Positions 2,714 to 17,722 of a stretch of DNA of 49,464 nt are shown one piece after another. The stretch comes from Myxococcus sp. (GTDB taxonomy: Bacteria > Myxococcota > Myxococcia > Myxococcales > Myxococcaceae): positions 1-49,464 of the forward strand of contig JACSRE010000174.1 in assembly GCA_014879945.1 (NCBI GenBank), written 5' to 3'. How positions within the stretch are numbered: position 1 is the first letter of the stretch; each line of letters begins with the position of its first letter. The notes beneath the pieces were generated by a model, which was given only the letters and a program-made list of their open reading frames with translations, was not told the origin of the DNA and made no database searches. Position numbers and translations under genes: made by a program.

Positions 2714-3507
2714 CACGCCCTCCGCACGCGCTCGGCGCCGTGAAACGCCAGCACGCCATCGCGCCGCGCCACCGCGAGCAGCGTCATGTCGTGCGCGCGC
2801 GCCCGCTCCACCGCGAACGACGTGGGCGCCGAGATGGTGACGATGGTGCGCGCGCCGTACGCCGCCGCCTTGTCCACCAGCTCGTAGGAGCACCGGCTCG
2901 TCAGCAACAGGAACCCCTCACCCGGCGGCAGCCCCGCGCGGAGCCGGGCGCCGATGAGCTTGTCGAGCGCGTTGTGCCGGCCCACGTCTTCACGGACCTG
3001 CTCGAGCGTGCCCCCGGCGGAGCACCACGCGGCCGCGTGCACCGCGCGCGTCAACCCGTTGAGCGGCTGCTGCGCTTCGAGCGCCGCGAGGGCCGCGCGC
3101 ACCGCGGGAAGTGAGACGTCGACGCCCGCCAGCCCCTGCGCCTTCACCATGGGGAGCTGCTCCAGCGAGGTGACACCACACAGGCCGCAGCCGGTTCGCC
3201 CCGAGAGGCTCCGCTCGCGCAGCGGGTGCCGGGGCGCGTCGGCCCTCAACGTCACCACCAGCTCGACGCCCCTTGCCCGCTCCAACACCTGCACGCCCTT
3301 GATGAACGCGGCGTCGGTCACCACGCCCTCGGTCACCGTGAAGCCATAGGCGAAGTCTTCGAGGTCGGCCGGCGTCGTCATCATCACCGCGTAGGGGCGC
3401 GCGCCGTAGACGACGTTCACCGGCGCCTCGACGGCGACGTCCCGGGGGCGCGGCGCGTCGGCCCCGTCGAAGGCGAACGCGACGGCGTCGAGCTCAACGC
3501 GTGACAT
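2713..3507 (-). CDS. fdhD: Formate dehydrogenase sulfurtransferase FdhD (FdsC)
   Basis: A 264-aa sulfur carrier protein that delivers sulfur from the cysteine desulfurase to the molybdenum cofactor of formate dehydrogenase. The ATG at 3507 is chosen over upstream starts because it has a strong GGGAGG five bases before it. The CxxC motif is present (C107-G-L-C110 in SGRTGCGLCG), followed by the family blocks AAWCSAGG, EDVGRHNALDKLIG, LLLTSRCSYELVDKA and ISAPTSFAVE. The start overlaps the end of fdsA by 14 bases and the stop overlaps fdsD. In operons of this type the gene is called fdsC. Confidence 0.95.
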   Translation of the reverse strand: MSRVELDAVAFAFDGADAPRPRDVAVEAPVNVVYGARPYAVMMTTPADLEDFAYGFTVTEGVVTDAAFIKGVQVLERARGVELVVTLRADAPRHPLRERSLSGRTGCGLCGVTSLEQLPMVKAQGLAGVDVSLPAVRAALAALEAQQPLNGLTRAVHAAAWCSAGGTLEQVREDVGRHNALDKLIGARLRAGLPPGEGFLLLTSRCSYELVDKAAAYGARTIVTISAPTSFAVERARAHDMTLLAVARRDGVLAFHGAERVRRA

Positions 3508-6340
3508 CGGGGCCTCCCTCGAGCACCTGCCGGAGCGCGACGTCACGCCGGCGGTCTTCACGCTGAAACGCGCTCGGCCCCGACGTCTTCGACACCTGCA
3601 CCGCCGTCACCTTGTACTCGGGGCAGTTGGTGGCCCAGTCAGAGAACTCGGTCGTCACCACGTTCGCGCCGGTCTTCGCGTGGTGGAACGTCGTGTACAC
3701 CACGCCCGGCTGCACCCGCTCGGTCACCAGCGCGCGCAGCGTCGTCTCGCCTGCCCTGCTGGCCAGCAGCACCAGGTCGCCCGTCGTCAGGCCGCGGTTC
3801 TCGGCGTCGAAGGGGTGCACCTCGAGCACGTCTTCGTCGTGCCAGGCGGTGTTGGGCGTGCGCGCGGTCTGCGCGCCCACGTTGTACTGGCTCAAGATGC
3901 GCCCCGTCGTCAGCAGCAGCGGGAAGCGCGGGCCCGAGCGCTCGAGCGTGGGGATGAACTCGGTCAACATGAAGCGGCCCTTGCCGCGCACGAAGCGGTC
4001 CACGTGCATCACCGGAGTGCCGCGCGGCGCCTGCGCGTTGCACGGCCACTGCACGCTGCCGAGCGCGTCGAGCTTCTCGTACGAGACGCCCGCGAAGGTC
4101 GGCGTGAGTTGGGCGATCTCCTCCATCACCTCGCTGGGGTGCGCGTAGCGCAGCCCCATGCCCATGGCGTTGGCCAGCCCGAGCGTCACCTCCCAGTCGG
4201 CGAGGCCCGAGAGCGGCTGCATCACCTTGCGCACGCGGCTGATGCGGCGCTCGGCGTTGGTGAAGGTGCCGTCCTTCTCGAGGAAGGAGCTGCCGGGGAA
4301 GAAGACGTGCGCGTACTTGGCGGTCTCGTTGAGGAAGAGGTCGTGCACGATGACGCACTCCATCGCCTCGAGGCCCTTCACCACGTGCTGCGTGTTGGGG
4401 TCTGACTGGGCGAGGTCCTCACCCTGCACGTAGAGCCCCTTGAAGGCGCCGGCGAGGGCCTCATCGAGCATGTTGGGAATGCGCAGCCCGGGGTCCTTCG
4501 AGAGCGGCACGCCCCACAGCCCCTCGAAGAGCTCGCGCGTGGCGTCGTCGGCGACGTGGCGATAGCCCGGCAGCTCGTGGGGGAAGCTGCCCATGTCACA
4601 CGAGCCCTGCACGTTGTTCTGCCCGCGCAGCGGGTTCACCCCCACGCCGTCACGCCCGATGTTGCCGGTGGCCATCGCGAGGTTGGCCATGCCCATCACC
4701 ATCGTCGAGCCCTGGCTGTGCTCGGTGACGCCGAGGCCGTAGTAGATGGCCGCGTTCGGCGCCGACGCGTAGAGCCGCGCCGCCGCGCGCACCTCGGCCG
4801 CGGGCACCCCGGTGGCGCCCTCCATGGCCTCGGGCGAGTTGACCGGGTCGGCGATGAAGCGCGCCCAGCGCTCGAAGTCGTCGGGCTCGCACCGCTCGGC
4901 GACGTACTGCTGCTTCACCAGCCCTTCGGTCACCACCACGTGCGCCAGCGCGTTGATGAGCGCCACGTTGGTGCCGGGCTTGAGCGCGAGGTGGTGGGTG
5001 GCCTCGACGTGGGGAGCGCGGACCAGCTCGATGCGGCGCGGGTCCGCCACGATGAGCCGGGCGCCTTCACGCAGCCGCCGCTTGAGCCGCGAGGCGAACA
5101 CCGGGTGCGCGTCGGTGGGGTTGGCGCCGATGACGAGCACCACGTCGGCCTTCGCGACCGACTTGAAGTCCTGGGTGCCGGCCGAGGTGCCGAAGGTCTG
5201 CTTCAGGCCGTAGCCGGTCGGCGAGTGGCAGACGCGCGCGCAGGTGTCGACGTTGTTGTTGCCGAAGCCGCCCCGCACCAGCTTCTGCACCAGGAACACC
5301 TCTTCGTTGGTGCAGCGCGACGAGGTGATGCCCCCGATGGCGTCGGGGCCGTACTTCGCCTGGAGCCGCTGGAGCTCGTTGGCGGCGTGGGTGAAGGCCT
5401 CGTCCCACGTCACCTTCCGCCACGGGTCGGTGATGCGCGCGCGGATCATCGGCGTGGTGATGCGGTCTTCGTGCGAGGCGTAGCCAAAGGCGAAGCGCCC
5501 CTTCACGCACGAGTGCCCCTCGTTGGCCTGGCCCTTCTTCGAGGGCACCATGCGCACCACGCGGTCGCCTTGCGTCTCGGCGCGGAAGCCGCAGCCGACG
5601 CCGCAGTAGGCGCAGGTCGTCTCCACCACGCCGGTGGGCGTGCCGAGCTCAATGACGGACTTCTCGTTCAAGGTGGCGGTCGGGCACGCCTGCACGCACG
5701 CGCCGCACGACACGCACTCGCTCGAGAGGAAGTCGGCGCTCCCGGTGGCCACCTTGCTGGCGAGGCCGCGGCCTTCGATGGTGAGCGCGAAGGTGCCCTG
5801 CACCTCTTCACAGGCGCGCACGCAGCGCGAGCAGACGATGCACTTCGACGAGTCGAAGGTGAAGTAGGGGTTCGAGGCGTCGGGCGGCGTGGTGCGGTGC
5901 TGCGCCCCCTCGTGGCCGTAGCGCACCTCACGCAGCCCCACCGCGCCCGCCATGTCTTGCAGCTCGCAGTCGCCGTTGGCCGAGCAGGTGAGGCAGTCGA
6001 GCGGGTGGTCCGAGACGTAGAGCTCCATCACCCCGCGCCGCAGCGTCTTCAGCCGGTCGGTCTGGGTGCGCACGACCATGCCCTCTTCGGCCGGCGTGGT
6101 GCACGAGGCGGGCGTGCCGCGGCGACCCTCGATCTCCACGAGGCAGAGCCGGCAGGAGCCGAAGGCCTCGAGGCTGTCGGTGGCGCACAGCTTTGGGATC
6201 GCGGCGCCGAGGCCCGCCGCGGCCGCCATCACCGACGTGCCGCGCGCCACCGTCACCTGACGGCCGTCGATGGTGAGGCGCACCTTCTCGTCGCTCACCA
6301 CCACCGGCGTGCCCTGGTCGAAGTCTCTCTCGAACGCCAT
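3494..6340 (-). CDS. fdsA: NAD-dependent formate dehydrogenase, catalytic alpha subunit
   Basis: A 948-aa molybdenum subunit that oxidises formate to CO2. In order: a 2Fe-2S ferredoxin domain (C52, C63, C66, C80); a His-type 4Fe-4S site (H112, C116, C119, C125); two 4Fe-4S ferredoxin sites (C167/170/173/177 and C209/212/215/219); the Mo-domain cluster CAYCGVGC (C243, C246, C250, with C278); then the bis-MGD domains. The active-site residue in ARVCHSPTGYG is Cys371, so this is the cysteine form and not selenocysteine. A GAGGTGA ribosome-binding site six bases before the ATG at 6340 fixes the start, and the gap to fdsB is five bases. Length and domain order are as in FdsA. Confidence 0.97.
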   Translation of the reverse strand: MAFERDFDQGTPVVVSDEKVRLTIDGRQVTVARGTSVMAAAAGLGAAIPKLCATDSLEAFGSCRLCLVEIEGRRGTPASCTTPAEEGMVVRTQTDRLKTLRRGVMELYVSDHPLDCLTCSANGDCELQDMAGAVGLREVRYGHEGAQHRTTPPDASNPYFTFDSSKCIVCSRCVRACEEVQGTFALTIEGRGLASKVATGSADFLSSECVSCGACVQACPTATLNEKSVIELGTPTGVVETTCAYCGVGCGFRAETQGDRVVRMVPSKKGQANEGHSCVKGRFAFGYASHEDRITTPMIRARITDPWRKVTWDEAFTHAANELQRLQAKYGPDAIGGITSSRCTNEEVFLVQKLVRGGFGNNNVDTCARVCHSPTGYGLKQTFGTSAGTQDFKSVAKADVVLVIGANPTDAHPVFASRLKRRLREGARLIVADPRRIELVRAPHVEATHHLALKPGTNVALINALAHVVVTEGLVKQQYVAERCEPDDFERWARFIADPVNSPEAMEGATGVPAAEVRAAARLYASAPNAAIYYGLGVTEHSQGSTMVMGMANLAMATGNIGRDGVGVNPLRGQNNVQGSCDMGSFPHELPGYRHVADDATRELFEGLWGVPLSKDPGLRIPNMLDEALAGAFKGLYVQGEDLAQSDPNTQHVVKGLEAMECVIVHDLFLNETAKYAHVFFPGSSFLEKDGTFTNAERRISRVRKVMQPLSGLADWEVTLGLANAMGMGLRYAHPSEVMEEIAQLTPTFAGVSYEKLDALGSVQWPCNAQAPRGTPVMHVDRFVRGKGRFMLTEFIPTLERSGPRFPLLLTTGRILSQYNVGAQTARTPNTAWHDEDVLEVHPFDAENRGLTTGDLVLLASRAGETTLRALVTERVQPGVVYTTFHHAKTGANVVTTEFSDWATNCPEYKVTAVQVSKTSGPSAFQREDRRRDVALRQVLEGGPDVTR

Positions 6341-6345
6341 ACGGC

Positions 6346-7848
6346 TCACCTCGCCCGGCGGGTGAAGTCTTCGTGGAAGTGCTCGAGCGCGCTCATCACC
6401 GGCAGCGGCGTCAGCCCGCCGAGCGCGCAGAGCGACGCGTCGGTCAGCACGGCGCAGAGCGCATTGACGAGGGCCAGGTTCTTCTCGGGCTCGACGCCGC
6501 GCGCCACCTGGTCGAGCAGCTCGGCGCCGCGGGTGGAGCCGATGCGACACGGCGTGCACTTGCCGCAGCTCTCGAGGGCGCAGAAGTCGAAGGCGAAGCG
6601 CGCCTGCCTGGCGAGGTCCACCGTGTCGTCGAACACCACCACGCCAGCGTGGCCGAGAATGCCGCCGGCCTTCGCCAGCGCCTCGTAGTCGAGCGGCGTG
6701 TCGAGCAGCGCGTCGGGGAAGTACGCGCCCAGCGGCCCGCCCACCTGCACCGCGCGCACCGGCCGGCCCGAGGCGGTGCCGCCGCCCAGGTCGAAGACCA
6801 GCTCCCGCAGCGTGACGCCGAACGGGAGCTCGTAGAGCCCGCCGAACTTCACGTTGCCGCCCAACTGCACCGGCATGGTGCCGCGCGAGCGCCCGACCCC
6901 GAGCGCCGCGTACGCGTCGCCGCCGTGCTCGAGCACCCACGGCACCGCCGCGAGCGTCAGCACGTTGTTCACCAGCGTGGGCCTGCCGAAGAGGCCCTCG
7001 TGCGCCGGGAGCGGCGGCTTGGCGCGCACCTGCCCGCGCTTGCCCTCGAGGCTCTCGAGGAGCGCCGTCTCTTCTCCACACACATAGGCGCCGGCGCCCA
7101 CGCGCACCTCGACGTCGAAGCCGGCTCCGAGCACCCCACGGCTCCTCGCGGTGACGACGGCCGCGCGCAGCACCTCGACGGCGCGCGGGTACTCGGAGCG
7201 GCAGTAGACGAAGCCGTGGCTCGCCCCGACCGCCCGCCCGGCGATGCGCATGCCCTCGAGCAGGAGGAAGGGGTCGCCCTCGAGCACCATGCGGTCGGCG
7301 AAGGTGCCGCTGTCACCCTCGTCGGCGTTGCACACCACGTACTTCCGCGCGCTCTTCGCCTCGGCCACCGTCTTCCACTTGAGCCCCGCGGGAAAGCCGG
7401 CGCCGCCTCGACCGCGCAACCCCGAGGCGATGACGTGCCCGACGATCTCCGACGGCGTGAGCGACGACGCGCGCGTCCACCCGCGCAGGCCACCGTTGGC
7501 CACGAAGTCGTCGAACGAGCCCGGGTCGACGACGCCGACGCGGGCGAAGGTCAGGCGCCGCTGGCGCGCCATCGCTGGGAGCGACGCCACGAGCCCCAGC
7601 GCCTTCGGGTGCGGCGAGCCCGAGCGCAGCGCCTCGAGGAGCGCCGGCACCTCGGCGGGCTGGACGTTGCCGAAGCCGAGGCGGCCGTGCGCGCTGTCCA
7701 CCTCGACGAGCGGCTCGAGCCAGCACAGCCCGCGAGCGCCGGTGCGAACGACCTCGAGCCCGGCACCTCCCGCGGCGACGAAGGCCGCGGCGACCTCGTC
7801 GGCGCCGACCGACTGCGCCGCCGCGTCGCCGGGGACGAAGACCTTCAC
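6346..7848 (-). CDS. fdsB: NAD-dependent formate dehydrogenase, beta (diaphorase) subunit
   Basis: A 500-aa NuoF-like flavoprotein that passes electrons from the Fe-S chain through FMN to NAD+. It shows GRGGAGFP (146-153, nucleotide binding), CNADEGDSGTFADR and GAGAYVCGEETALLESLEG (FMN/NAD region). The 4Fe-4S motif is ESCGKCTPCR (C428, C431, C434), with a further Cys in SLCALGG. Residues 1-90 form the thioredoxin-like N-terminal region typical of FdsB and HoxF. The start is GTG at 7848, which overlaps the TGA of fdsG (GTGA). The apparent open extension further upstream is the fdsG reading region and not part of this protein. Confidence 0.96.
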   Translation of the reverse strand: MKVFVPGDAAAQSVGADEVAAAFVAAGGAGLEVVRTGARGLCWLEPLVEVDSAHGRLGFGNVQPAEVPALLEALRSGSPHPKALGLVASLPAMARQRRLTFARVGVVDPGSFDDFVANGGLRGWTRASSLTPSEIVGHVIASGLRGRGGAGFPAGLKWKTVAEAKSARKYVVCNADEGDSGTFADRMVLEGDPFLLLEGMRIAGRAVGASHGFVYCRSEYPRAVEVLRAAVVTARSRGVLGAGFDVEVRVGAGAYVCGEETALLESLEGKRGQVRAKPPLPAHEGLFGRPTLVNNVLTLAAVPWVLEHGGDAYAALGVGRSRGTMPVQLGGNVKFGGLYELPFGVTLRELVFDLGGGTASGRPVRAVQVGGPLGAYFPDALLDTPLDYEALAKAGGILGHAGVVVFDDTVDLARQARFAFDFCALESCGKCTPCRIGSTRGAELLDQVARGVEPEKNLALVNALCAVLTDASLCALGGLTPLPVMSALEHFHEDFTRRAR

Positions 7849-8357
7849 GGCGCGCGCTCCTTCAGGCGGGCAAGGAGCTGATCGGCGGCTGGCAGGTCGA
7901 GCCGCCCCACCACCCTCGAGGCGTCGACGAGCGCGGTGGGCCCGAGCGCGCAGTTGCCCAGGCAAGAGGCGCTCTCGAGGGTGACGCCCTCGACCGTCGC
8001 GCCGGGGGTGAGGCCGTGCCGGTGCTCGAGGTGGGCCGCCACCGCGTCGGCGCCGCGCGCCTGACACGCCTCGGCGCGACAGAGCGAGACGGTGTGCTGG
8101 CCGGGGGGCGCGGTGCGCAGATCGGCGTAGAACGAGATGACGCCCTTCACCTCGGCCTTCGAGACGTTGAGGGCGTCGGCGATGAGCGCGGTGGCCTCGG
8201 CGTGCAGGTAACCGAAGCGCGCCTGGAGCGCGTGCAGCACTGGCAACATCGCGGTCGCGTCGGGGCCGTCGTCACCCAGAAACGCGCGCGCCGCGCGGAG
8301 CTCGCTCGAGATCAGCCCTCGTGCCTGGTCTGGGTCCCACCGAGAGAGGGTGTGCAT
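7845..8357 (-). CDS. fdsG: NAD-dependent formate dehydrogenase, gamma subunit (2Fe-2S)
   Basis: A 170-aa NuoE-like thioredoxin-fold protein carrying a 2Fe-2S cluster. The ligands are C93 and C98 (LCRAEACQ) and C132 and C136 (SCLGNCALGP). The helical N-terminal half includes MLPVLHALQARFGY and KAEVKGVISFYADL. The ATG at 8357 gives the normal family length; the open frame upstream has low-complexity Arg/Pro/Ala content and is rejected. This is the first gene of the fds operon, so its promoter should lie in 8358-8584, shared with the divergent ankyrin gene. I could not identify convincing promoter boxes there. A decayed copy of codons around 20-55 lies at 9655-9790. Confidence 0.95.
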   Translation of the reverse strand: MHTLSRWDPDQARGLISSELRAARAFLGDDGPDATAMLPVLHALQARFGYLHAEATALIADALNVSKAEVKGVISFYADLRTAPPGQHTVSLCRAEACQARGADAVAAHLEHRHGLTPGATVEGVTLESASCLGNCALGPTALVDASRVVGRLDLPAADQLLARLKERAP

Positions 8358-8584
8358 GGGGCCCGAAATCTCGCCCCGGGGGCGCAGGCCCGCAAGGCGT
8401 CGCGGCGGCCGCGTTGACGCATCGGGGCACCGGCTGTCCGCCCAACCGAGGGAAGCGAGCGCCAGCGCTCGGCAGCGAGGCCCTCGCCGTGCCTCACCTC
8501 GCCGCACCGCTGGGGCACCACGTCCCACACCGACGGCCCACGACCCGGGACTTGACCGCTACGCGCTTGATAGGCTGCGACACC

Positions 8585-9649
8585 GTGATTCTCACGACAG
8601 CGGTCGCCCTCGGCGTCTTCCTCTCGGCCACGCCCGCGGACGCCGCGCTCTTCGGCGAGCTCCGCTACGGACGGCCGGGCCTCGCGGAGGCGCAGCTCGC
8701 CGCGGGGGCGAACGTGAATGCGCAGAACGCCGAAGGCCTGACCCCGCTCCTCTGGTTGATTCGTCACTACGTCGACTACGACGTGGAACTCGCTCTGCGC
8801 AACAAGCAGGCCGGCGAGCGCAACGTCGAGGAGAACGATCGCTACCGCAGATGCCTGAAGCTCCTTCTCGAGCATGGAGCGGATGTGTCCATGAAGACGC
8901 CGGAGGGACTCACCGCGCTCCAGTACGCGGTGGTCCTCGGGAAGTGGGGCCCCACGGAGATGCTGTTGCAGAAGGCAGGCACGCTCGAGAAGTCGATTCT
9001 CGACCGAGACGGCAACACGCTCCTTCACCTGTCCGTTCTCGCTGACAACGACGTGACTCCGAGCCGCTTCTGGCAGGACCTGCACGACGCGCTCCTGAGC
9101 GACAAGGTGAACGTGCGCGTCTCCAACGCCGCAGGGCAGACCCCCATGGACCACATGCGTCGAAACTCGCCCGGCTTTGCCTTCTCGCTCCAGCTCTACC
9201 TCGACCGCGCGATCGTTCAGAAGGCGAAGCACGAAGCCTTCTTGAAGAAGTCTGACGAGCGGGTGGCGGAGAACCAGCGCGTCCTGGCCGAACACCGGCG
9301 TCGTTCCGAAGACGACGGAAGAACGCTCAAAGAGAGCTTTCAGGTTGAGTACCCTTTCCAGTGCGACGTTTCGGAGAACGGCCTCTTTGGTTCGCGAACG
9401 TCCGAGCCCGTGACCGTCACAGTCACGCCGACCAAGGTGCGGATCAGCAACCTCGAGCCGCACTACGGCGCCTTCGTCGTAGAACGAAGCGGCGTGCACT
9501 TGATCGGGGGCCAACGGTGGGAGGTCTATGAGTTCGAGCAGACGAGCACCAACTCGACCTACAAGCGCATCGGGTTCCCTCAACTGCCCGGCCGGCCCCG
9601 CGCGATGCTGGTGACGAGCATCGGCCGTCACGGCATGTGTATGCCCTAG
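8585..9649 (+). CDS. Exported ankyrin-repeat protein
   Basis: From the GTG at 8585 the protein is 354 aa with a good signal peptide (VILTTAVALGVFLSATPADA, cleavage after ADA). Ankyrin-type units follow: GANVNAQNAEGLTPLLWLI, GADVSMKTPEGLTALQYAV, then DRDGNTLLHLSV and NAAGQTPMDHM. A Lys/Glu-rich helix follows (about 215-255, LKKSDERVAENQRVLAEHRR). The C-terminal domain (about 260-354) is beta-rich and resembles nothing I recognise. A periplasmic or extracellular binding role is inferred. Its base composition is somewhat less GC-rich than its neighbours, and it is bracketed by fdsG and an fdsG relic, so acquisition or rearrangement is likely. The exact start is uncertain. Confidence 0.8.
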   Translation: MILTTAVALGVFLSATPADAALFGELRYGRPGLAEAQLAAGANVNAQNAEGLTPLLWLIRHYVDYDVELALRNKQAGERNVEENDRYRRCLKLLLEHGADVSMKTPEGLTALQYAVVLGKWGPTEMLLQKAGTLEKSILDRDGNTLLHLSVLADNDVTPSRFWQDLHDALLSDKVNVRVSNAAGQTPMDHMRRNSPGFAFSLQLYLDRAIVQKAKHEAFLKKSDERVAENQRVLAEHRRRSEDDGRTLKESFQVEYPFQCDVSENGLFGSRTSEPVTVTVTPTKVRISNLEPHYGAFVVERSGVHLIGGQRWEVYEFEQTSTNSTYKRIGFPQLPGRPRAMLVTSIGRHGMCMP

Positions 9650-9855: not shown

Positions 9856-11202
9856 GTGTCGCTCGTGCCCGGCACGCCCCCCAGCACCTTCGCGCCGAGA
9901 CACACCCTGCGCCTCGAGGCCGAGCGCGCGCTCATGTACGACCGCGAGACCCACCAGTACTACGGCGTCTCGGCGGGTGAGGCGTTCCTCTGCACGGCGT
10001 CGGGCGAGGTCGGCCTCGACGAGGCGCAGCGCATGTTGGCCGAGCAGGTGGGCGACGAAGAGGCCGCCGCGCTCCGAGACCAGCTGGTCGCCGACGGGGC
10101 CGTCACCGAGACGGGCTTCACCGGCCGACTCCTCGAGCAGCGAGACGTCAAGGGCGCCTGGGCCGCGCCGCTGGTGTGCCACCTGGGCGTCACGCTCGCG
10201 TGCAACTTCGCCTGCAACCACTGCTACTCGAGCTCGGGCCGACGCGCCCCCGATGAGCTGACGCTCGAGGACATCAAGGGCCTGGTCGATCAGCTGGTCG
10301 AGCTCGGCTGCCTCAAGCTGGTGCTGGGCGGCGGCGAGCCGTTCCTCCGCAAGGAGCTGCCCGACATCGTGGCCTACGCCGACTCGAAGGGCGTGGACTG
10401 CTTCGTCCACACCAACGCCTCGCTGGTTCGCCGCGAGACGCTCGAGAGGCTGGCGAAGTGCCCGCCGGCGTCGCTCGCGGTGAGCCTCGATGGCCCCGAC
10501 GCCGAGACCAACGACCGCGTACGAGGGCCCAGCGCCTTCGACAAGACGCTGGCCGGGCTCGAGGTGCTGCGCGCCCACTGGCCGCACGGCTTCAACCTCT
10601 CGGTCACCATCACCCCCGAGAACGCCGCCCTCACGCCGCGCCTGGTGGCGATGGCGAAGGAGCAGGGCGCGCGCGTGTTGCTGCTGCGCCCCGCCTACCC
10701 CGCCGGCGAGGCGATGAAAGACACCACGCTCGTGTGTGACCGCGACACCTTCGCGCGCGCCATCGACCTGGCTCGACCCGAGGCCGAGCGGCTGGGCGTG
10801 ACCCTCGACGCGCCGCACCCGCACGAGCAAGGCGAACCCGACTTCGAGGGCTTCGGCTGCGTCGCGGCGCGCGTGGTGCTCGGCGTCGACCCACGAGGCA
10901 ACGTGACGCCGTGCCTCAACCTCCCCGGCGGCTTCGACAGCGGCAACGTCCGCACCCAGCGGTTGGTCGACCTCTGGAAGAAGGGCCGCGGGTTCGTGCT
11001 CCTGCGCGCCCAGCAGCCGGGCCCCCTGTGCGGCAGCTGCAAACACTTCGACACCTGCCGCGGCGGGTGCCGGGTGCGCGCGCTCTACGCCGACAACGGC
11101 CTGGGCGGCCCCGACAGTTGGTGTCACTACGAGCCGAAAGAAAGTGTCGCGCCGAAGCGCGGCCGACGTCCCACGAAGCACGCACCAGGAGCAGCCCCAT
11201 GA
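9856..11202 (+). CDS. Radical SAM/SPASM peptide maturase with N-terminal PqqD-like region
   Basis: A 448-aa protein. Residues about 12-90 (ALMYDRETHQYYGVSAGEAF and following helices) look like a PqqD-type RiPP recognition element. The radical SAM core has the cluster motif C116-x3-C120-x2-C123 (CNFACNHCYSS), then LVLGGGEPFLR, HTNASLVR and VSLDGPD. The C-terminal SPASM domain carries C335, C353, C392, C395, C401, C405 and C423, enough for two auxiliary Fe-S clusters. Such enzymes install thioether or carbon crosslinks in ribosomal peptides (for example the PqqE, AlbA and ranthipeptide families). The stop overlaps the start of the next gene, a Cys-repeat peptide, which I infer is the substrate. 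The start is GTG 9856; GTG 9865 is possible. Confidence 0.9.
   Translation: MSLVPGTPPSTFAPRHTLRLEAERALMYDRETHQYYGVSAGEAFLCTASGEVGLDEAQRMLAEQVGDEEAAALRDQLVADGAVTETGFTGRLLEQRDVKGAWAAPLVCHLGVTLACNFACNHCYSSSGRRAPDELTLEDIKGLVDQLVELGCLKLVLGGGEPFLRKELPDIVAYADSKGVDCFVHTNASLVRRETLERLAKCPPASLAVSLDGPDAETNDRVRGPSAFDKTLAGLEVLRAHWPHGFNLSVTITPENAALTPRLVAMAKEQGARVLLLRPAYPAGEAMKDTTLVCDRDTFARAIDLARPEAERLGVTLDAPHPHEQGEPDFEGFGCVAARVVLGVDPRGNVTPCLNLPGGFDSGNVRTQRLVDLWKKGRGFVLLRAQQPGPLCGSCKHFDTCRGGCRVRALYADNGLGGPDSWCHYEPKESVAPKRGRRPTKHAPGAAP
11187..11191 (+). promoter_or_regulatory. Ribosome-binding site of the precursor-like peptide gene
   Basis: AGGAG lies seven bases before the ATG at 11199, inside the last codons of the radical SAM gene. 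With the ATGA overlap at 11199-11202 it fixes the start of the peptide gene and shows the two are co-translated. Confidence 0.8.
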
Positions 11203-11555
11203 CGGTTGGAAGAGCAGGCGCAAAGAAGCCCATCGCGACGGGGTGTGGAGCCTCGACCCGCGCCCCCGCCAAGGCCCCCGCGCGCAAGCCAGTCGCGACC
11301 GGCTGCGGGGCGAGCACCGGCGGCGCCAAGGGGTGGACGGCGAAGACCACCACGCGGCCGAGCACCAAGGTCTCGACCCGCAGCGCCGACCTGCTCAGCC
11401 GCGCTGGCACCAGGAAGACGACGAAAGAGAAGGTCTCCTCGGGCTGTGCAGCGCCTGCGCCGAAGAAGCCCGCCGCGCCAGCCGTGAAGCCGAAGGTCAG
11501 CACGGGCTGCGCCGCCCCAGCGCCGAAGCCCGCGCCGAAGCGCACGGGGTGCTGA
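11199..11555 (+). CDS. Candidate RiPP precursor peptide with repeated Gly-Cys motifs
   Basis: A 118-aa, Lys/Ala/Pro/Thr-rich, basic peptide with exactly five cysteines (C16, C36, C83, C104, C118), every one preceded by Gly. Two sites share the context KPxATGCGAST (residues 10-20 and 30-40). Two share KVSxGCAAPAPK (78-89 and 99-110). The last residues are RTGC, so the final Cys is the C-terminus. It starts in an ATGA overlap with the radical SAM/SPASM gene and has its own AGGAG. The repeated cores suggest several modification sites in one precursor. There is no classical GG leader and no membrane segment. A metal-binding or simply low-complexity protein is the alternative. The family is not one I recognise. 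Confidence 0.8.
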   Translation: MTVGRAGAKKPIATGCGASTRAPAKAPARKPVATGCGASTGGAKGWTAKTTTRPSTKVSTRSADLLSRAGTRKTTKEKVSSGCAAPAPKKPAAPAVKPKVSTGCAAPAPKPAPKRTGC

Positions 11556-11636
11556 GCACCTCCTGGAGCACGGTCGACCGAACGTGACCGTGCTCGTTGA
11601 GCGGGTGGCGGCGCCGCGAGTGCGGTAGTCGGGCGC

Positions 11637-12524
11637 ATGCCTCCTCCTCCTCCCTTGAATGAACAGACCTCGCTGGTCGACTCATTCCGGCGCCTCGCGG
11701 CGTGGCTGCGTGAGCACGACGGGGCCGACCTGCTGCAGTCGCTCTCTCCGGGCACCAAGCCGCTGCACCTGTCGAAGCTCGAGCAGAAGCTGGGCTTCCG
11801 GGTGCCTGCCGGCTTGCGCACCTGGTGGATGCTCCACGACGGCCAGAAGCGCCGCGGCGACAGCCTCATCGGCGCGCTGCAGCTGCTGCCGGTGGCCTGG
11901 GTGCTCAACGAGCGGCCGAAGGCGATCGCGAAGCTGCGACGCGTGCGTGGAGAGCCCGCCTTCGCCGCGCAAGCCGGCCTGACCCCCGACGAGGCCGCGT
12001 CAGACGAGTGGATTCCCATCGCCGTCGGCGAGGCGCTGTGCGTGCTGGTGCAAGCGAAGTCGGGCCGCGTCTTCGCGACCCTCGAGGAGGCTCCGTTCCT
12101 CCAGCGGGTCGGCGACTCGGTGCCGAAGTGGATCGCCGCCTGGGTCGATGAGGTGGAGGCCGGCCGGCACGAACTGGTGCAGAGCCACGACGGCGTGTTC
12201 TTCGTCGAGCACGATGGGGGCAGTGAGGCGTCGGATGATGCCGAGGACGCCGACGACACCGAGGACGCCGACGAGCCCGAGGACGCCGACGACACCGAGG
12301 ACGCCGACGACACCGAGGACACCGAGGACGCCGACGACACCGAGGACGCCGACGACACCGACGACACCGACGACACCGACACCGACGACACCGACACCGA
12401 CGACACCGACACCGACGACGACGACGACACCGAGGACGCCGACGACACCGACACTGACGACGACGACGACACCGAGGACACCGACGACACCGACGACACC
12501 GACGACGACGACACCGCGAAGTAG
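11637..12524 (+). CDS. SUKH (SMI1/KNR4)-like protein with Asp-rich C-terminal tail
   Basis: A 295-aa protein. Residues about 10-190 resemble SMI1/KNR4-type domains: an N-terminal helix, LSKLEQKLGFRVPAGLRTWWMLHDGQ, then LLPVAWVLNE, DEWIPIAVGE and a closing KWIAAWVDEVEAG helix. SUKH domains are common as immunity or binding proteins in polymorphic toxin systems, but no toxin gene is adjacent. From about residue 196 to the end nearly every residue is Asp, Glu, Thr or Ala in DDTEDA-type repeats, giving an extremely acidic and probably disordered tail. A tail like this is unusual for the family and may bind cations or basic proteins. The preceding gap (11556-11636) holds nothing clear. Confidence 0.75.
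   Translation: MPPPPPLNEQTSLVDSFRRLAAWLREHDGADLLQSLSPGTKPLHLSKLEQKLGFRVPAGLRTWWMLHDGQKRRGDSLIGALQLLPVAWVLNERPKAIAKLRRVRGEPAFAAQAGLTPDEAASDEWIPIAVGEALCVLVQAKSGRVFATLEEAPFLQRVGDSVPKWIAAWVDEVEAGRHELVQSHDGVFFVEHDGGSEASDDAEDADDTEDADEPEDADDTEDADDTEDTEDADDTEDADDTDDTDDTDTDDTDTDDTDTDDDDDTEDADDTDTDDDDDTEDTDDTDDTDDDDTAK
12228..12522. repeat. GAC-rich imperfect minisatellite encoding the acidic tail
   Basis: About 295 bases are built from gacgacaccgag and gacgcc units in 6- to 18-bp periods, all in frame with the SUKH-like gene. The pattern (DDTEDA, DDTD, TDDT) changes along the array, as expected from repeat slippage. Decayed-looking similar sequence continues past the stop codon to about 12550. The opposite strand has a long Val/Gly open frame that is only a shadow of the repeat. 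Confidence 0.9.
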
Positions 12525-15042: not shown

Positions 15043-15811
15043 GCGCGGCTCCGTAGAACGACAGCCTCGCGTCGCGCGCCACCGGAGCGCCGATGAGCTT
15101 CTCGAACACCTGCTCCAGCGACCTCACCTCGTGCCGCGCCACCAATTCACCCACCGGGCCCTCGTCGACCAGCCTGCCCGCGCGAATGACGCCCGCGTGG
15201 GTCGCGAGGCGGTCGGCGATCTCCAACACGTGCGTGGTGAGCAGCAGCGTCACGCCTCGTCGCGACAGCTCGGACAACAGCTCGCGGATGACGCCGGCGG
15301 CGATGACGTCGATGCCCTCGAACGGCTCGTCGAGGAACACCAGGTCGGGCGCGTGCACCAGGGCCGCGGCGATGGCGAGCCGGCGGCGCATTCCCTTGGA
15401 GTACTCGGCCACCAGCGCCCCGCCCTTGTATGAGAGCTCGGTCAACGTCAGCAGCTCGTCGGTGCGGCGCTCCGCCTCGTCGCCCGGCAGCCCGTGCATG
15501 CGGCCGCAGAACGTCAGGTACTGCCGGCCGGTCAGGCGCTCGAAGAGCGAGAGCTCCTCGGGCACCACGCCGACCCGCGACTTCACGGCCAGCGGGTCCT
15601 TCACCGCGTCGAGGCCCAGCAACGTCAGCGCGCCGGCGTCGGGCGCGTAGATGCCGGTCAACAGCGAGATGGTGGTCGACTTGCCGGCGCCGTTGGGCCC
15701 GAGGAAGGCGTAGAAGCTCCCGCGGGGAATCGTCATGTCGAGCGCATTGACGGCGGTGAAGTCGCCGAACCGCTTGGTGAGCCCCCGCGCCTCCACCGCC
15801 GCCGTCGTCAT
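15032..15811 (-). CDS. ABC transporter ATP-binding protein
   Basis: A 259-aa ATPase from the ATG at 15811; a GTG two codons upstream is also possible. It has Walker A GPNGAGKST (38-46), a Q-loop region around VGVVPEELSLFERLTG with Glu in place of the usual Gln, the signature segment YSKGMRRRL (137-145), Walker B LVFLDEPFEGID (157-168) and the H-loop LTTHVLEI. The sequence resembles ABC-2-type drug or sodium export ATPases of the CcmA class. It overlaps the permease gene downstream. The 156-base gap to the divergent lipoprotein gene at 15974 must hold both promoters. Confidence 0.95.
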   Translation of the reverse strand: MTTAAVEARGLTKRFGDFTAVNALDMTIPRGSFYAFLGPNGAGKSTTISLLTGIYAPDAGALTLLGLDAVKDPLAVKSRVGVVPEELSLFERLTGRQYLTFCGRMHGLPGDEAERRTDELLTLTELSYKGGALVAEYSKGMRRRLAIAAALVHAPDLVFLDEPFEGIDVIAAGVIRELLSELSRRGVTLLLTTHVLEIADRLATHAGVIRAGRLVDEGPVGELVARHEVRSLEQVFEKLIGAPVARDARLSFYGAARGG

Positions 15812-15973
15812 CGTCACCGGGTTCTACCCGACCACCATGGCGTCACCATCGGCCAGACGCCCGAGGGCGACGGAACTCCGGAGCATTTGAAGCCAGCCCC
15901 GGCTTTCGGGTACAGGGGACTGGCGAGCGCTCTCTCCGTGGCCGGCGGGGCGCTCTTCGGGAGCTGCAACCTC

Positions 15974-17722
15974 ATGTTCATGACGACGACGCGCTGGGTG
16001 ATGACCGGGTTCATCTGCGGGGCGCTGCTGTCTGCGACCGCCTCGTGTGGCCCGCAGCAGTGCACGCCCACCACGTGCACCGGGTGCTGCGACTCGAGCA
16101 ACCGCTGTCAACAGGGGAACCAGAACAGCGTCTGCGGCTCGAAGGGCGCGGCGTGCACCTCGTGCTCCCTCGGCCAGGCCTGCAGCTTCGGCGGCGTCTG
16201 CACCGGCGGCACCGGCGGCAACAACGCCGGCGGCGGCACCTCGGTCACCGGCGGCGGCTTCGCGACGGGCGGCGGCACCGCGGTGGGCGGAGGCTTCGCG
16301 ACCGGCGGCGGGAACGCGACCGGCGGCGGCACCGTCACCGGCGGCGGGAACGCGACCGGCGGCGGCACCGTCACCGGCGGCGGGAGCGCGACCGGCGGCG
16401 GCACCGTCACCGGCGGCGGGAGCGCGACCGGCGGCGGCACCGCGGCCTGCTCGCCTCAGAACTGTCTGGGCTGCTGCCGTGGCGGCACCTGCCAGAACGG
16501 CAACGCGCCGTCGGCCTGCGGTCGCTCCGGCAACACCTGCCTCGACTGCGGCGCCGACTCGTGCAGCGCGTTCGGCACTTGCGTGGGCTCGACCGGCGGT
16601 GGCGCGGGTGGTGGCTCCGGCGGCGGCGCGCCCGCCTGCAACACCTGCCTGGCGCAGACCGGCGGGCAGATCGTCTGCGTGCCCCAGGGCACCAACCTCA
16701 ACGTCACCACCTGCGGCAACAACGGCACCTTCTGTCAGAACTGCGTGCGCAACGGCTTCACCGCCTGCACCAACGGCACCTGCACCGGCGCCTCGACGGG
16801 CGGGGGCAGCGCGACCGGTGGGGGCAGCGCGACGGGCGGCGGCAGCGCCACCGGCGGCGGCAGTGGCGGCGGGGCGCCCTCGAGCGGCGTCGGCTCGCCT
16901 TGCACCAGCGCCGCCCAGTGCACCCCCAGCCTGGGGCCCACGGCCATCTGCAAGACGCAGACGAACCCCTCGCCTGGCTTCTCTCCCACCTTCTTCCAGC
17001 AGGGCTTCTGCACCCTGCCCTGCACCGCCAACGGCCAGGCGAACTGCGGCGCCGGCAACGTCTGCGCGGGCGGCACCAGCTCGACGCCGGCCCTCTACAA
17101 CGAGACGGCACGCTACTGCGTCAACGGCTGCGCCATGCGCGGCCAGTGCGCGCCGGGGCTCGAGTGCGTCGACGTCGGCGACAGCCAGGCGACCTCGACC
17201 AACGGCGGCTGCTGGCTCGACCTCACGGGGCCGGGCGCCACCTTCACCGGCGGCGGCCTGCCCACGAACCTCGGCGCCGCCTGCAGCACCAGCACCGGCT
17301 GCTCCAACCCACCCGACCCGGCCCTCGGCGCGTGCTTCGGAGGCTCCGAGCTTCCCTTCACCGGCTTCACCGGAGGCTTGTGCATGACGTACACGGGGTT
17401 CGCCCCCGACTCGTACTGCGTGCAGGCCAACGGCATGGAGGTGCTGCTGCGCACCCGCTCCGACGGCGGCTATGACTTCTGGTGCGGCCAGGCCTGCCTC
17501 ACGCTGGGCAGCGCGCCCCGGCCGGGCTACCGCTGCGCGCCGGTGTACTTCCCCGACGCCGGCCTCAAGGGCGGCATGGTGTGGCGAGAGGTCTGCGCCA
17601 CCAACACCGACTGCGCCAACGTGACCGGCGCGACCCAGTGCAACACCACCTACGGCCAGTGCTGCGTCACCAGCACCTCGGCGTTGACGGCGCGGGACTG
17701 CACCGGCCTCACCGGGCTCTGA
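15974..17722 (+). CDS. Cys-rich lipoprotein with Gly-repeat linkers
   Basis: A 582-aa exported protein. A GGGAG sequence ten bases upstream supports the ATG at 15974; the ATG at 15980 is an alternative. The signal sequence ends in SATASC with Cys25 as probable lipid site. Small Cys-rich modules (QQCTPTTCTGCCDSSNRCQ, NCLGCCRGGTCQNG and similar) alternate with Gly/Thr linkers built from ATGGGTVTGGGN units (about residues 90-157) and from SATGGG units (about 275-300). The C-terminal half holds further Cys-rich blocks (CTSAAQC, CSTSTGCSNPP, CVTST). This style of surface protein is frequent in myxobacteria. The biochemical role is unknown. Confidence 0.85.
   Translation: MFMTTTRWVMTGFICGALLSATASCGPQQCTPTTCTGCCDSSNRCQQGNQNSVCGSKGAACTSCSLGQACSFGGVCTGGTGGNNAGGGTSVTGGGFATGGGTAVGGGFATGGGNATGGGTVTGGGNATGGGTVTGGGSATGGGTVTGGGSATGGGTAACSPQNCLGCCRGGTCQNGNAPSACGRSGNTCLDCGADSCSAFGTCVGSTGGGAGGGSGGGAPACNTCLAQTGGQIVCVPQGTNLNVTTCGNNGTFCQNCVRNGFTACTNGTCTGASTGGGSATGGGSATGGGSATGGGSGGGAPSSGVGSPCTSAAQCTPSLGPTAICKTQTNPSPGFSPTFFQQGFCTLPCTANGQANCGAGNVCAGGTSSTPALYNETARYCVNGCAMRGQCAPGLECVDVGDSQATSTNGGCWLDLTGPGATFTGGGLPTNLGAACSTSTGCSNPPDPALGACFGGSELPFTGFTGGLCMTYTGFAPDSYCVQANGMEVLLRTRSDGGYDFWCGQACLTLGSAPRPGYRCAPVYFPDAGLKGGMVWREVCATNTDCANVTGATQCNTTYGQCCVTSTSALTARDCTGLTGL
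16255..16443 (+). repeat. In-frame 36-bp Gly/Thr linker repeat
   Basis: About four near-identical 36-bp units (gcgaccggcggcggcaccgt followed by caccggcggcggga and ac or gc) encode ATGGGTVTGGG plus N or S. They are preceded by looser FATGGG variants. The shift from N to S units (GGGN twice, then GGGS twice) suggests recent block duplication. A related shorter array occurs at about 16798-16870. Confidence 0.85.

Follow-up and report, generated by a model that had tools for sequence, protein, structure and literature searches.

The peptide maturases SkfB, CteB and SuiB, in all of which an RRE is fused to a SPASM/Twitch radical SAM enzyme, have been compared together; residues 12-105 of SkfB form a peptide-binding domain containing the RRE, and in SuiB a linker cysteine completes Aux I (PMC6231123). 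In the freyrasin/PapB ranthipeptides one SPASM enzyme is paired with several identical Cys units (CX3D repeats), the acceptor being an Asp downstream of the Cys, and two further groups with repeated motifs, Cluster 59 of Kostenko et al. 2022 (Asp-Cys, up to six repeats) and TvgA (TVGG), are catalogued beside one radical SAM enzyme (PMC9062424). Repeated Cys units with a Gly next to the Cys are also found in the captophorins, bufferins and bulbicupramide and in the SbtM thiooxazole peptides, where every Cys is modified; bulbicupramide has no protease gene nearby (PMC12668002, PMC12538549). The MNIO enzymes are unrelated to radical SAM enzymes, and SbtM has a curated family of its own.

The window (the whole stretch of DNA analysed, 49,464 nucleotides from a soil Myxococcus sp.) contains a two-gene cassette, shared with a few scattered relatives, in which a radical SAM/SPASM enzyme gene is joined to a gene for a small basic peptide. 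The SPASM peptide-maturase architecture of the enzyme, together with its neighbour as the only consistent partner, makes it very likely that this is a minimal RiPP-type cassette of enzyme and multi-site precursor, a reading that covers the pairing and the modified units and no particular chemistry. The features are listed below in window coordinates, with the enzyme domains in residues of its product.

9856..11202, + strand, radical SAM/SPASM maturase gene (GTG start, 448 aa)
enzyme residues ~16-94, RRE-like winged helix (profile alignment, AF2 fold and Foldseek)
enzyme residues 105-~290, radical SAM core (C116/C120/C123; Pfam PF04055, E 1e-25)
enzyme residues 335-423, SPASM domain with seven Cys (Pfam PF13186, E 2e-6)
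11199..11555, + strand, putative precursor peptide gene (118 aa, pI 11.2, five [T/S]GC units, ending ...KRTGC-stop)
11199..11219, + strand, N-terminus MTVGRAG, a short conserved stretch (alignment A6) and possible leader
11229..11246, + strand, candidate core unit 1, P-I-A-T-G-C
11289..11306, + strand, candidate core unit 2, P-V-A-T-G-C
11370..11405, + strand, helix-like block VSTRSADLLSRA, similar to a block of the EF-hand-type precursors
11430..11447, + strand, candidate core unit 3, K-V-S-S-G-C
11493..11510, + strand, candidate core unit 4, K-V-S-T-G-C
11535..11552, + strand, candidate core unit 5, P-K-R-T-G-C followed by the stop codon (C-terminal)
11566..11595, + strand, hairpin directly 3' of the precursor stop (10-bp perfect arms, no T-run)

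The two genes overlap in an ATGA, as the preliminary description had it, with the peptide ATG at 11199-11201 and the enzyme stop at 11200-11202. The hairpin (fold -24.2 kcal/mol, z -2.7) is a possible operon end.

The cysteine motifs recognized in the preliminary description, a CX3CX2C radical SAM motif and a seven-Cys SPASM tail, are both present and correspond to those of radical SAM/SPASM peptide maturases (CX3CX2C and CX9-15GX4C...CX2CX5CX3C...C). The former lies at C116-x3-C120-x2-C123 and the latter has the canonical seven-Cys pattern (C335-x12-G-x4-C353, C392-x2-C395-x5-C401-x3-C405 ... C423); all ten motif cysteines are invariant in 9/9 homologues, as is C294, a linker cysteine between the core and the SPASM domain. 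Given the role of the linker cysteine in SuiB, it is plausible by analogy that Aux I is fully ligated here, via C294. The N-terminus had been called PqqD-like, and although Pfam gives no match in the N-domain, three other approaches agree with that assignment. A profile of the nine homologues matches SkfB (PDB 6efn) with E 9e-34, aligned from SkfB residue 15 through the RRE; the AF2 model, built from six sequences, has an EEE-HHH-E fold at residues 16-94 with block pLDDT mostly 65-96, thus containing the three strands and three helices of a fused RRE; and the top Foldseek matches of the enzyme model are SkfB (E 6e-17), CteB and SuiB. The SPASM region of the model is poor, with block pLDDT about 30-55.

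SkfB, the sporulation killing factor sactisynthase, is thus the best solved relative both by sequence profile and by Foldseek, and has the same order of RRE, radical SAM and SPASM/Twitch domains. It differs in having a Twitch domain with one auxiliary cluster, whereas the enzyme here has a full seven-Cys SPASM domain and the invariant linker Cys. Its precursor SkfA has 55 residues and is not known to contain [T/S]GC repeats. SuiB and CteB (PDB 5v1q, 5wgg) are RRE-fused SPASM peptide maturases too, and the SuiB linker Cys parallels C294, but they act on other substrates (forming a Lys-Trp crosslink and a Cys-Thr thioether respectively) and have 16-20% identity to this enzyme. The mycofactocin maturase MftC differs in that the RRE is fused in the enzyme described here.

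NCBIfam lists 78 families for the enzyme, and in the best 25 of these 78, for which scores and cut-offs were compared, it falls below the cut-off in every case, so that no curated maturase model is reached. The highest score is with the mycofactocin maturase MftC model TIGR03962 (186 bits, cut-off 265), so that the scores do not single out thioether enzymes as close kin. Membership of the mycofactocin system was rejected, as TIGR03962 is 79 bits under its cut-off, the loci contain no mycofactocin precursor, and no other gene is conserved. The sactipeptide maturase models StsB (112 of 625 bits) and SkfB (79 of 300) are likewise under their cut-offs, and the thio(seleno)oxazole SbtM model TIGR04082 reaches 58 of 350 bits in an alignment to part of the radical SAM core only. 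The captophorin/bufferin (MNIO) group was also rejected, because no MNIO (DUF692) enzyme goes with the precursor: the maturase at these loci is a radical SAM enzyme, and no other gene is conserved. The 118-aa peptide has no Pfam match and no NCBIfam family, and the precursors as a group reach no NCBIfam model at cut-off.

Close homologues of the enzyme were found with its profile in 9/195 Myxococcota genomes belonging to four families (43-82% identity), including six of the 96 genomes in the family of the window genome. In a tree the nine enzymes form a clade with 100/100 support on a long branch, apart from the next radical SAM proteins; most branchings within the clade lack resolution, and the tree therefore does not reveal how the two precursor forms described below came about. 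The peptide gene is conserved beside the enzyme, as is general for RiPP pathways, in eight of the nine enzyme-bearing genomes. Five family members were found with the precursor profile, all next to the enzyme, and those of G010, G130 and G131 were recognized by eye. The peptide lies downstream of the enzyme in seven loci, G130 and G131 among them, and upstream in G010, where the genes share a 7-base overlap; overlaps are also present in the window, G065, G064, G008 and G014. In G008 one contig stops within the repeats, and a second contig of this genome opens with that repeat sequence and has the ending TRTGC-stop; assembly therefore seems to have split a single gene.

The ninth and most diverged enzyme, in G137 (L050 8448-9776; 43-50% identity within the clade), has no recognizable precursor nearby, and a degenerate DNA pattern search of that genome gave too many chance matches. 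Both precursor profiles were also run against the 195 Myxococcota genomes and returned no orphan precursor above compositional noise; the weak matches in other genomes (E 0.002-0.009) do not come from similarly small proteins with [T/S]GC repeats and were set aside as such noise. No copy of the peptide is present near ten loci encoding distant homologues (L012, L033-L035, L039, L040, L042, L015-L017) or five encoding paralogues in the window genome (L002-L005, L007). The enzyme was not found at 1e-75 in a sample of 395 genomes of the phylum to which G196, a Geobacter MAG, belongs, a negative of little weight as this group offers no positive control. Viral contigs did not contain it either, and plasmids contained only mycofactocin-type and other distant relatives. 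The preliminary description had made its proposal depend on homologous maturases occurring together with the peptide; they do so in 8/9 cases, with no credible orphan.

Comparison of the nine neighbourhoods by blastp at E 1e-5, using a simple gene caller that missed most precursors, shows only the enzyme in common, and the pairing is therefore not a by-product of general synteny. By this comparison the cassette consists of two genes whose surroundings are unrelated from locus to locus, and no protease, oxidase, transporter, immunity or metal-related gene is conserved across the nine neighbourhoods.

The peptide has the features that had been reported for it, with 118 residues and five cysteines that each follow a Gly, an arrangement reached in 0/20,000 composition-preserving shuffles. 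The repeated contexts are likewise as reported: IATGCGAST and VATGCGAST, VSSGCAAPAP and VSTGCAAPAP, and a C-terminal RTGC. The first four units sit in K/P/A/S/T linkers and the fifth is C-terminal. When the 30 Cys of eight precursors are pooled, Gly occupies position -1 in 29/30, Thr or Ser position -2 in all 30 (Ser in four of them), and Val or Ile position -4 in 26/30, with Ser the commonest residue at -3 and Pro at -5. The residues that follow the Cys vary among small ones (G, A, S, T), and seven Cys are the last residue; in 7/7 complete precursors Cys is the exact C-terminus. The precursors have a pI of 10-12 and their units are separated by K/R/P-rich linkers. The Gly-Cys repeat proposed earlier is thus upheld as the conserved element, but the residues after the Cys, which had been included in the repeats, vary and are missing at the C-terminal unit; what is conserved in the pooled sequences is [V/I]-x-[T/S]-G-C, on the upstream side of the Cys. 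Because it is the conserved element, each Gly-Cys unit is a likely site of modification.

Comparison of related loci by the Nei-Gojobori method gives dN/dS values for the precursor of 0.44 (window and closest homologue) and 0.36 (a second pair), and for the enzyme of 0.16 and 0.23 in two pairs. Among 18 identical motif codons in the window precursor and its closest homologue, ten have silent changes; TGC is kept through silent changes, while the linkers change and gain or lose residues. By these measures the 118-aa ORF behaves as a real protein under purifying selection.

The precursors have two architectures. The short form, at five loci, consists of short basic repeat proteins that begin M[TP]V[GR][KR][AT] in 5/5 and have a central Gly-Trp; 4/5 also contain a helix-like block, of which VSTRSADLLSRA and LSERTASQLDKA are examples. 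The second form, in G010, G130 and G131, has a helical-looking domain of ~100 residues and a C-terminal tail; within the domain lie a single internal [T/S]GC and a loop like that of an EF-hand (DKNKDNFITPTE, DKDRDGKLDTEE, DSNRDGEIGYGE). Canonical EF-hand loop residues are visible in DKDRDGKLDTEE and DSNRDGEIGYGE; at gathering score the Pfam EF-hand is not reached, the best E being about 0.03 in two precursors, and G131 gives no match. The G130 precursor (L030 / L048) has the EF-hand-like domain, one internal TGC, four VSTGC[AS]SP repeats and the ending GTGC, and so joins features of both architectures. The G131 precursor (L049 6277-6684) ends in SSHC, the sole site at which a non-Gly residue, His, precedes the Cys. 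The gene that follows it (6694-7107) encodes a zinc-ribbon protein.

A block after the EF-hand loop of the second form (LSQTAKDLLNYT, LSPLAARLLNVA, LSPLGVRLLDAV) resembles the short-form block, in the best register among all tested, with a column-shuffle p of about 0.0005 (post hoc) and an hhalign probability of 96%. This likeness was tested after being noticed, on few and repetitive sequences, and is for that reason only a lead, in which the shared block would be a candidate recognition helix inside both precursor forms.

We propose that the RRE-like N-domain would bind the precursor, that the radical SAM cluster would generate a 5'-deoxyadenosyl radical, and that each [V/I]-x-[T/S]-G-C unit, one after another, would have a hydrogen abstracted, the electron passing, as presumed from the enzyme family, to the SPASM clusters; the window precursor could thus receive up to five identical modifications per molecule. 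With 7/7 complete precursors ending at Cys, a modification common to all sites can need only the Cys and residues upstream of it. The eight precursors have no conserved Asp or Glu after the Cys that could serve as an acidic acceptor of the freyrasin type, in which the acceptor lies downstream, where the last Cys here has no residue at all. A thioether from the Cys sulfur to an upstream carbon, with Thr/Ser(-2) or Val(-4) as the conserved candidates, is favoured by the conservation of these residues and by the likeness of the enzyme to SkfB and CteB, and within this explanation its probability falls somewhat short of even. That four of the 30 sites have Ser in place of Thr speaks against any linkage dependent on the Thr gamma carbon. 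The 2-Da loss anticipated in the preliminary description (thioether) is thus one plausible outcome, and a loss of 4 Da (thiooxazole) another. Because the loci share neither a protease nor a transporter gene, the basic protein, once modified, probably functions intracellularly or undergoes processing by general enzymes. Against the proposal count the G137 enzyme (43% identity) without a recognizable precursor, the G131 site with His instead of Gly before the Cys, the lack of a match to any curated maturase model at cut-off and the poor SPASM region of the AF2 model.

The main alternative is the 4-Da route, in which a radical SAM rather than an MNIO enzyme would form a thiooxazole from every Gly-Cys (-4 H per site); the product would be a poly-thiooxazole protein that binds metal inside the cell in the manner of the captophorins, bufferins and bulbicupramide. 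Such a reaction needs only the Cys and the residue before it, in keeping with Cys as the last residue and with Gly(-1) at nearly every site, and the radical SAM/SPASM enzyme SbtM is reported to form a thiooxazole by removing four hydrogens (PMC11002830). The MNIO systems offer the parallel of repeated Cys 5-mers with every Cys modified, and bulbicupramide that of a locus without a protease gene (PMC12668002, PMC12538549). We regard it as unlikely, in that the SbtM model aligns with only part of the radical SAM core at a score far below its cut-off, a two-residue reaction leaves the strict Thr/Ser(-2) and Val/Ile(-4) unexplained, and no metal-related gene is common to the loci. Quite improbable is a precursor that carries several copies of a small product, its units changed at Val or Thr and later excised at the basic linkers. 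TvgB acts on repeated TVGG units (PMC9062424), and TvgA (for which this is proposed), PQQ and mycofactocin are precedents; the K/R/P-rich linkers lie between units as this requires, and the best NCBIfam model is that of the mycofactocin maturase, but the loci have no protease, oxidase or transporter gene in common, and this reading fails to explain why Cys is the most invariant residue.

The high pI of the precursors and the one enzyme locus without a peptide could also mean that the peptide is not the substrate at all, being for instance a Cys-containing basic nucleic-acid or metal binder while the enzyme acts elsewhere. Exclusive adjacency in 8/9 otherwise unrelated neighbourhoods, in both gene orders, and the RRE-type N-domain of the enzyme make this very improbable. 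An equally slight probability attaches to a classical sactipeptide antibiotic cluster that has merely diverged. Among solved structures SkfB comes closest, and the models for StsB and SkfB do match, albeit under cut-off; against this, no transporter, protease or immunity gene is conserved, and the precursor is long, basic, repetitive and Cys-ended, with an EF-hand-like alternative form. Sactipeptide precursors are generally short, unlike the long repetitive basic precursor here.

The reading as an RRE-fused SPASM maturase paired with a multi-core Cys precursor, which is that of the preliminary description, draws on the domains, the 8/9 adjacency and the Cys motif. Its further statement that the core sequences match no familiar RiPP class agrees with the searches, in which no curated family is matched and the pair is undescribed in the libraries covered. 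The open literature yielded nothing matching for EF-hand, Gly-Cys or Myxococcota radical SAM RiPPs, and neither [T/S]GC repeats nor EF-hand-like radical SAM precursors are described in it (subscription papers, most preprints and RadicalSAM.org being outside this scope, so that the cassette may have been catalogued before). On sequence evidence the cassette seems to represent a family of modified peptides that is so far undescribed. Repeated motifs beside single radical SAM enzymes are already known; the motifs of Cluster 59 and TvgA/TvgB are Asp-Cys or TVGG as opposed to [T/S]-G-C, and those clusters carry extra genes (a recombinase; an oxidase and transporters). Its chemistry or a link to calcium would make the cassette a new class, a prospect that we consider possible but doubtful. 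Equally tentative is the specific version in which the same unseen modification would be placed on every V-x-[T/S]-G-C unit, the C-terminal one included, with recognition, and perhaps modification, tied to calcium via the EF-hand-like precursors.

If the modification is real, the cassette would comprise an enzyme and its substrate as a complete unit, with several equivalent sites per chain and a strict upstream-only rule, useful for studying how SPASM enzymes choose an acceptor and move along a substrate, and would add a new precursor family without a curated model. It could also show directly whether radical SAM enzymes converge with MNIO enzymes on poly-thiooxazole metal binders.

Several other genes lie near the cassette in the window. 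Immediately downstream, 11637-12524 encodes an SMI1/KNR4 (SUKH) domain protein with a long low-complexity Asp/Thr/Glu/Ala tail (about 12224-12520); it is not conserved beside the other cassette copies. On the minus strand, 3494-8528 contains ORFs for a molybdopterin oxidoreductase and a NuoF-like (FMN, Fe-S) protein and then another ORF; these resemble an NAD-dependent formate dehydrogenase and are not conserved next to other cassette copies. An ankyrin-repeat protein is encoded upstream at 8321-9649 on the same strand as the enzyme, and a long frame at 15494-17722, with Cys-rich segments and many GGGxATGGG-type repeats, resembles a secreted or lipoprotein-like repeat protein.
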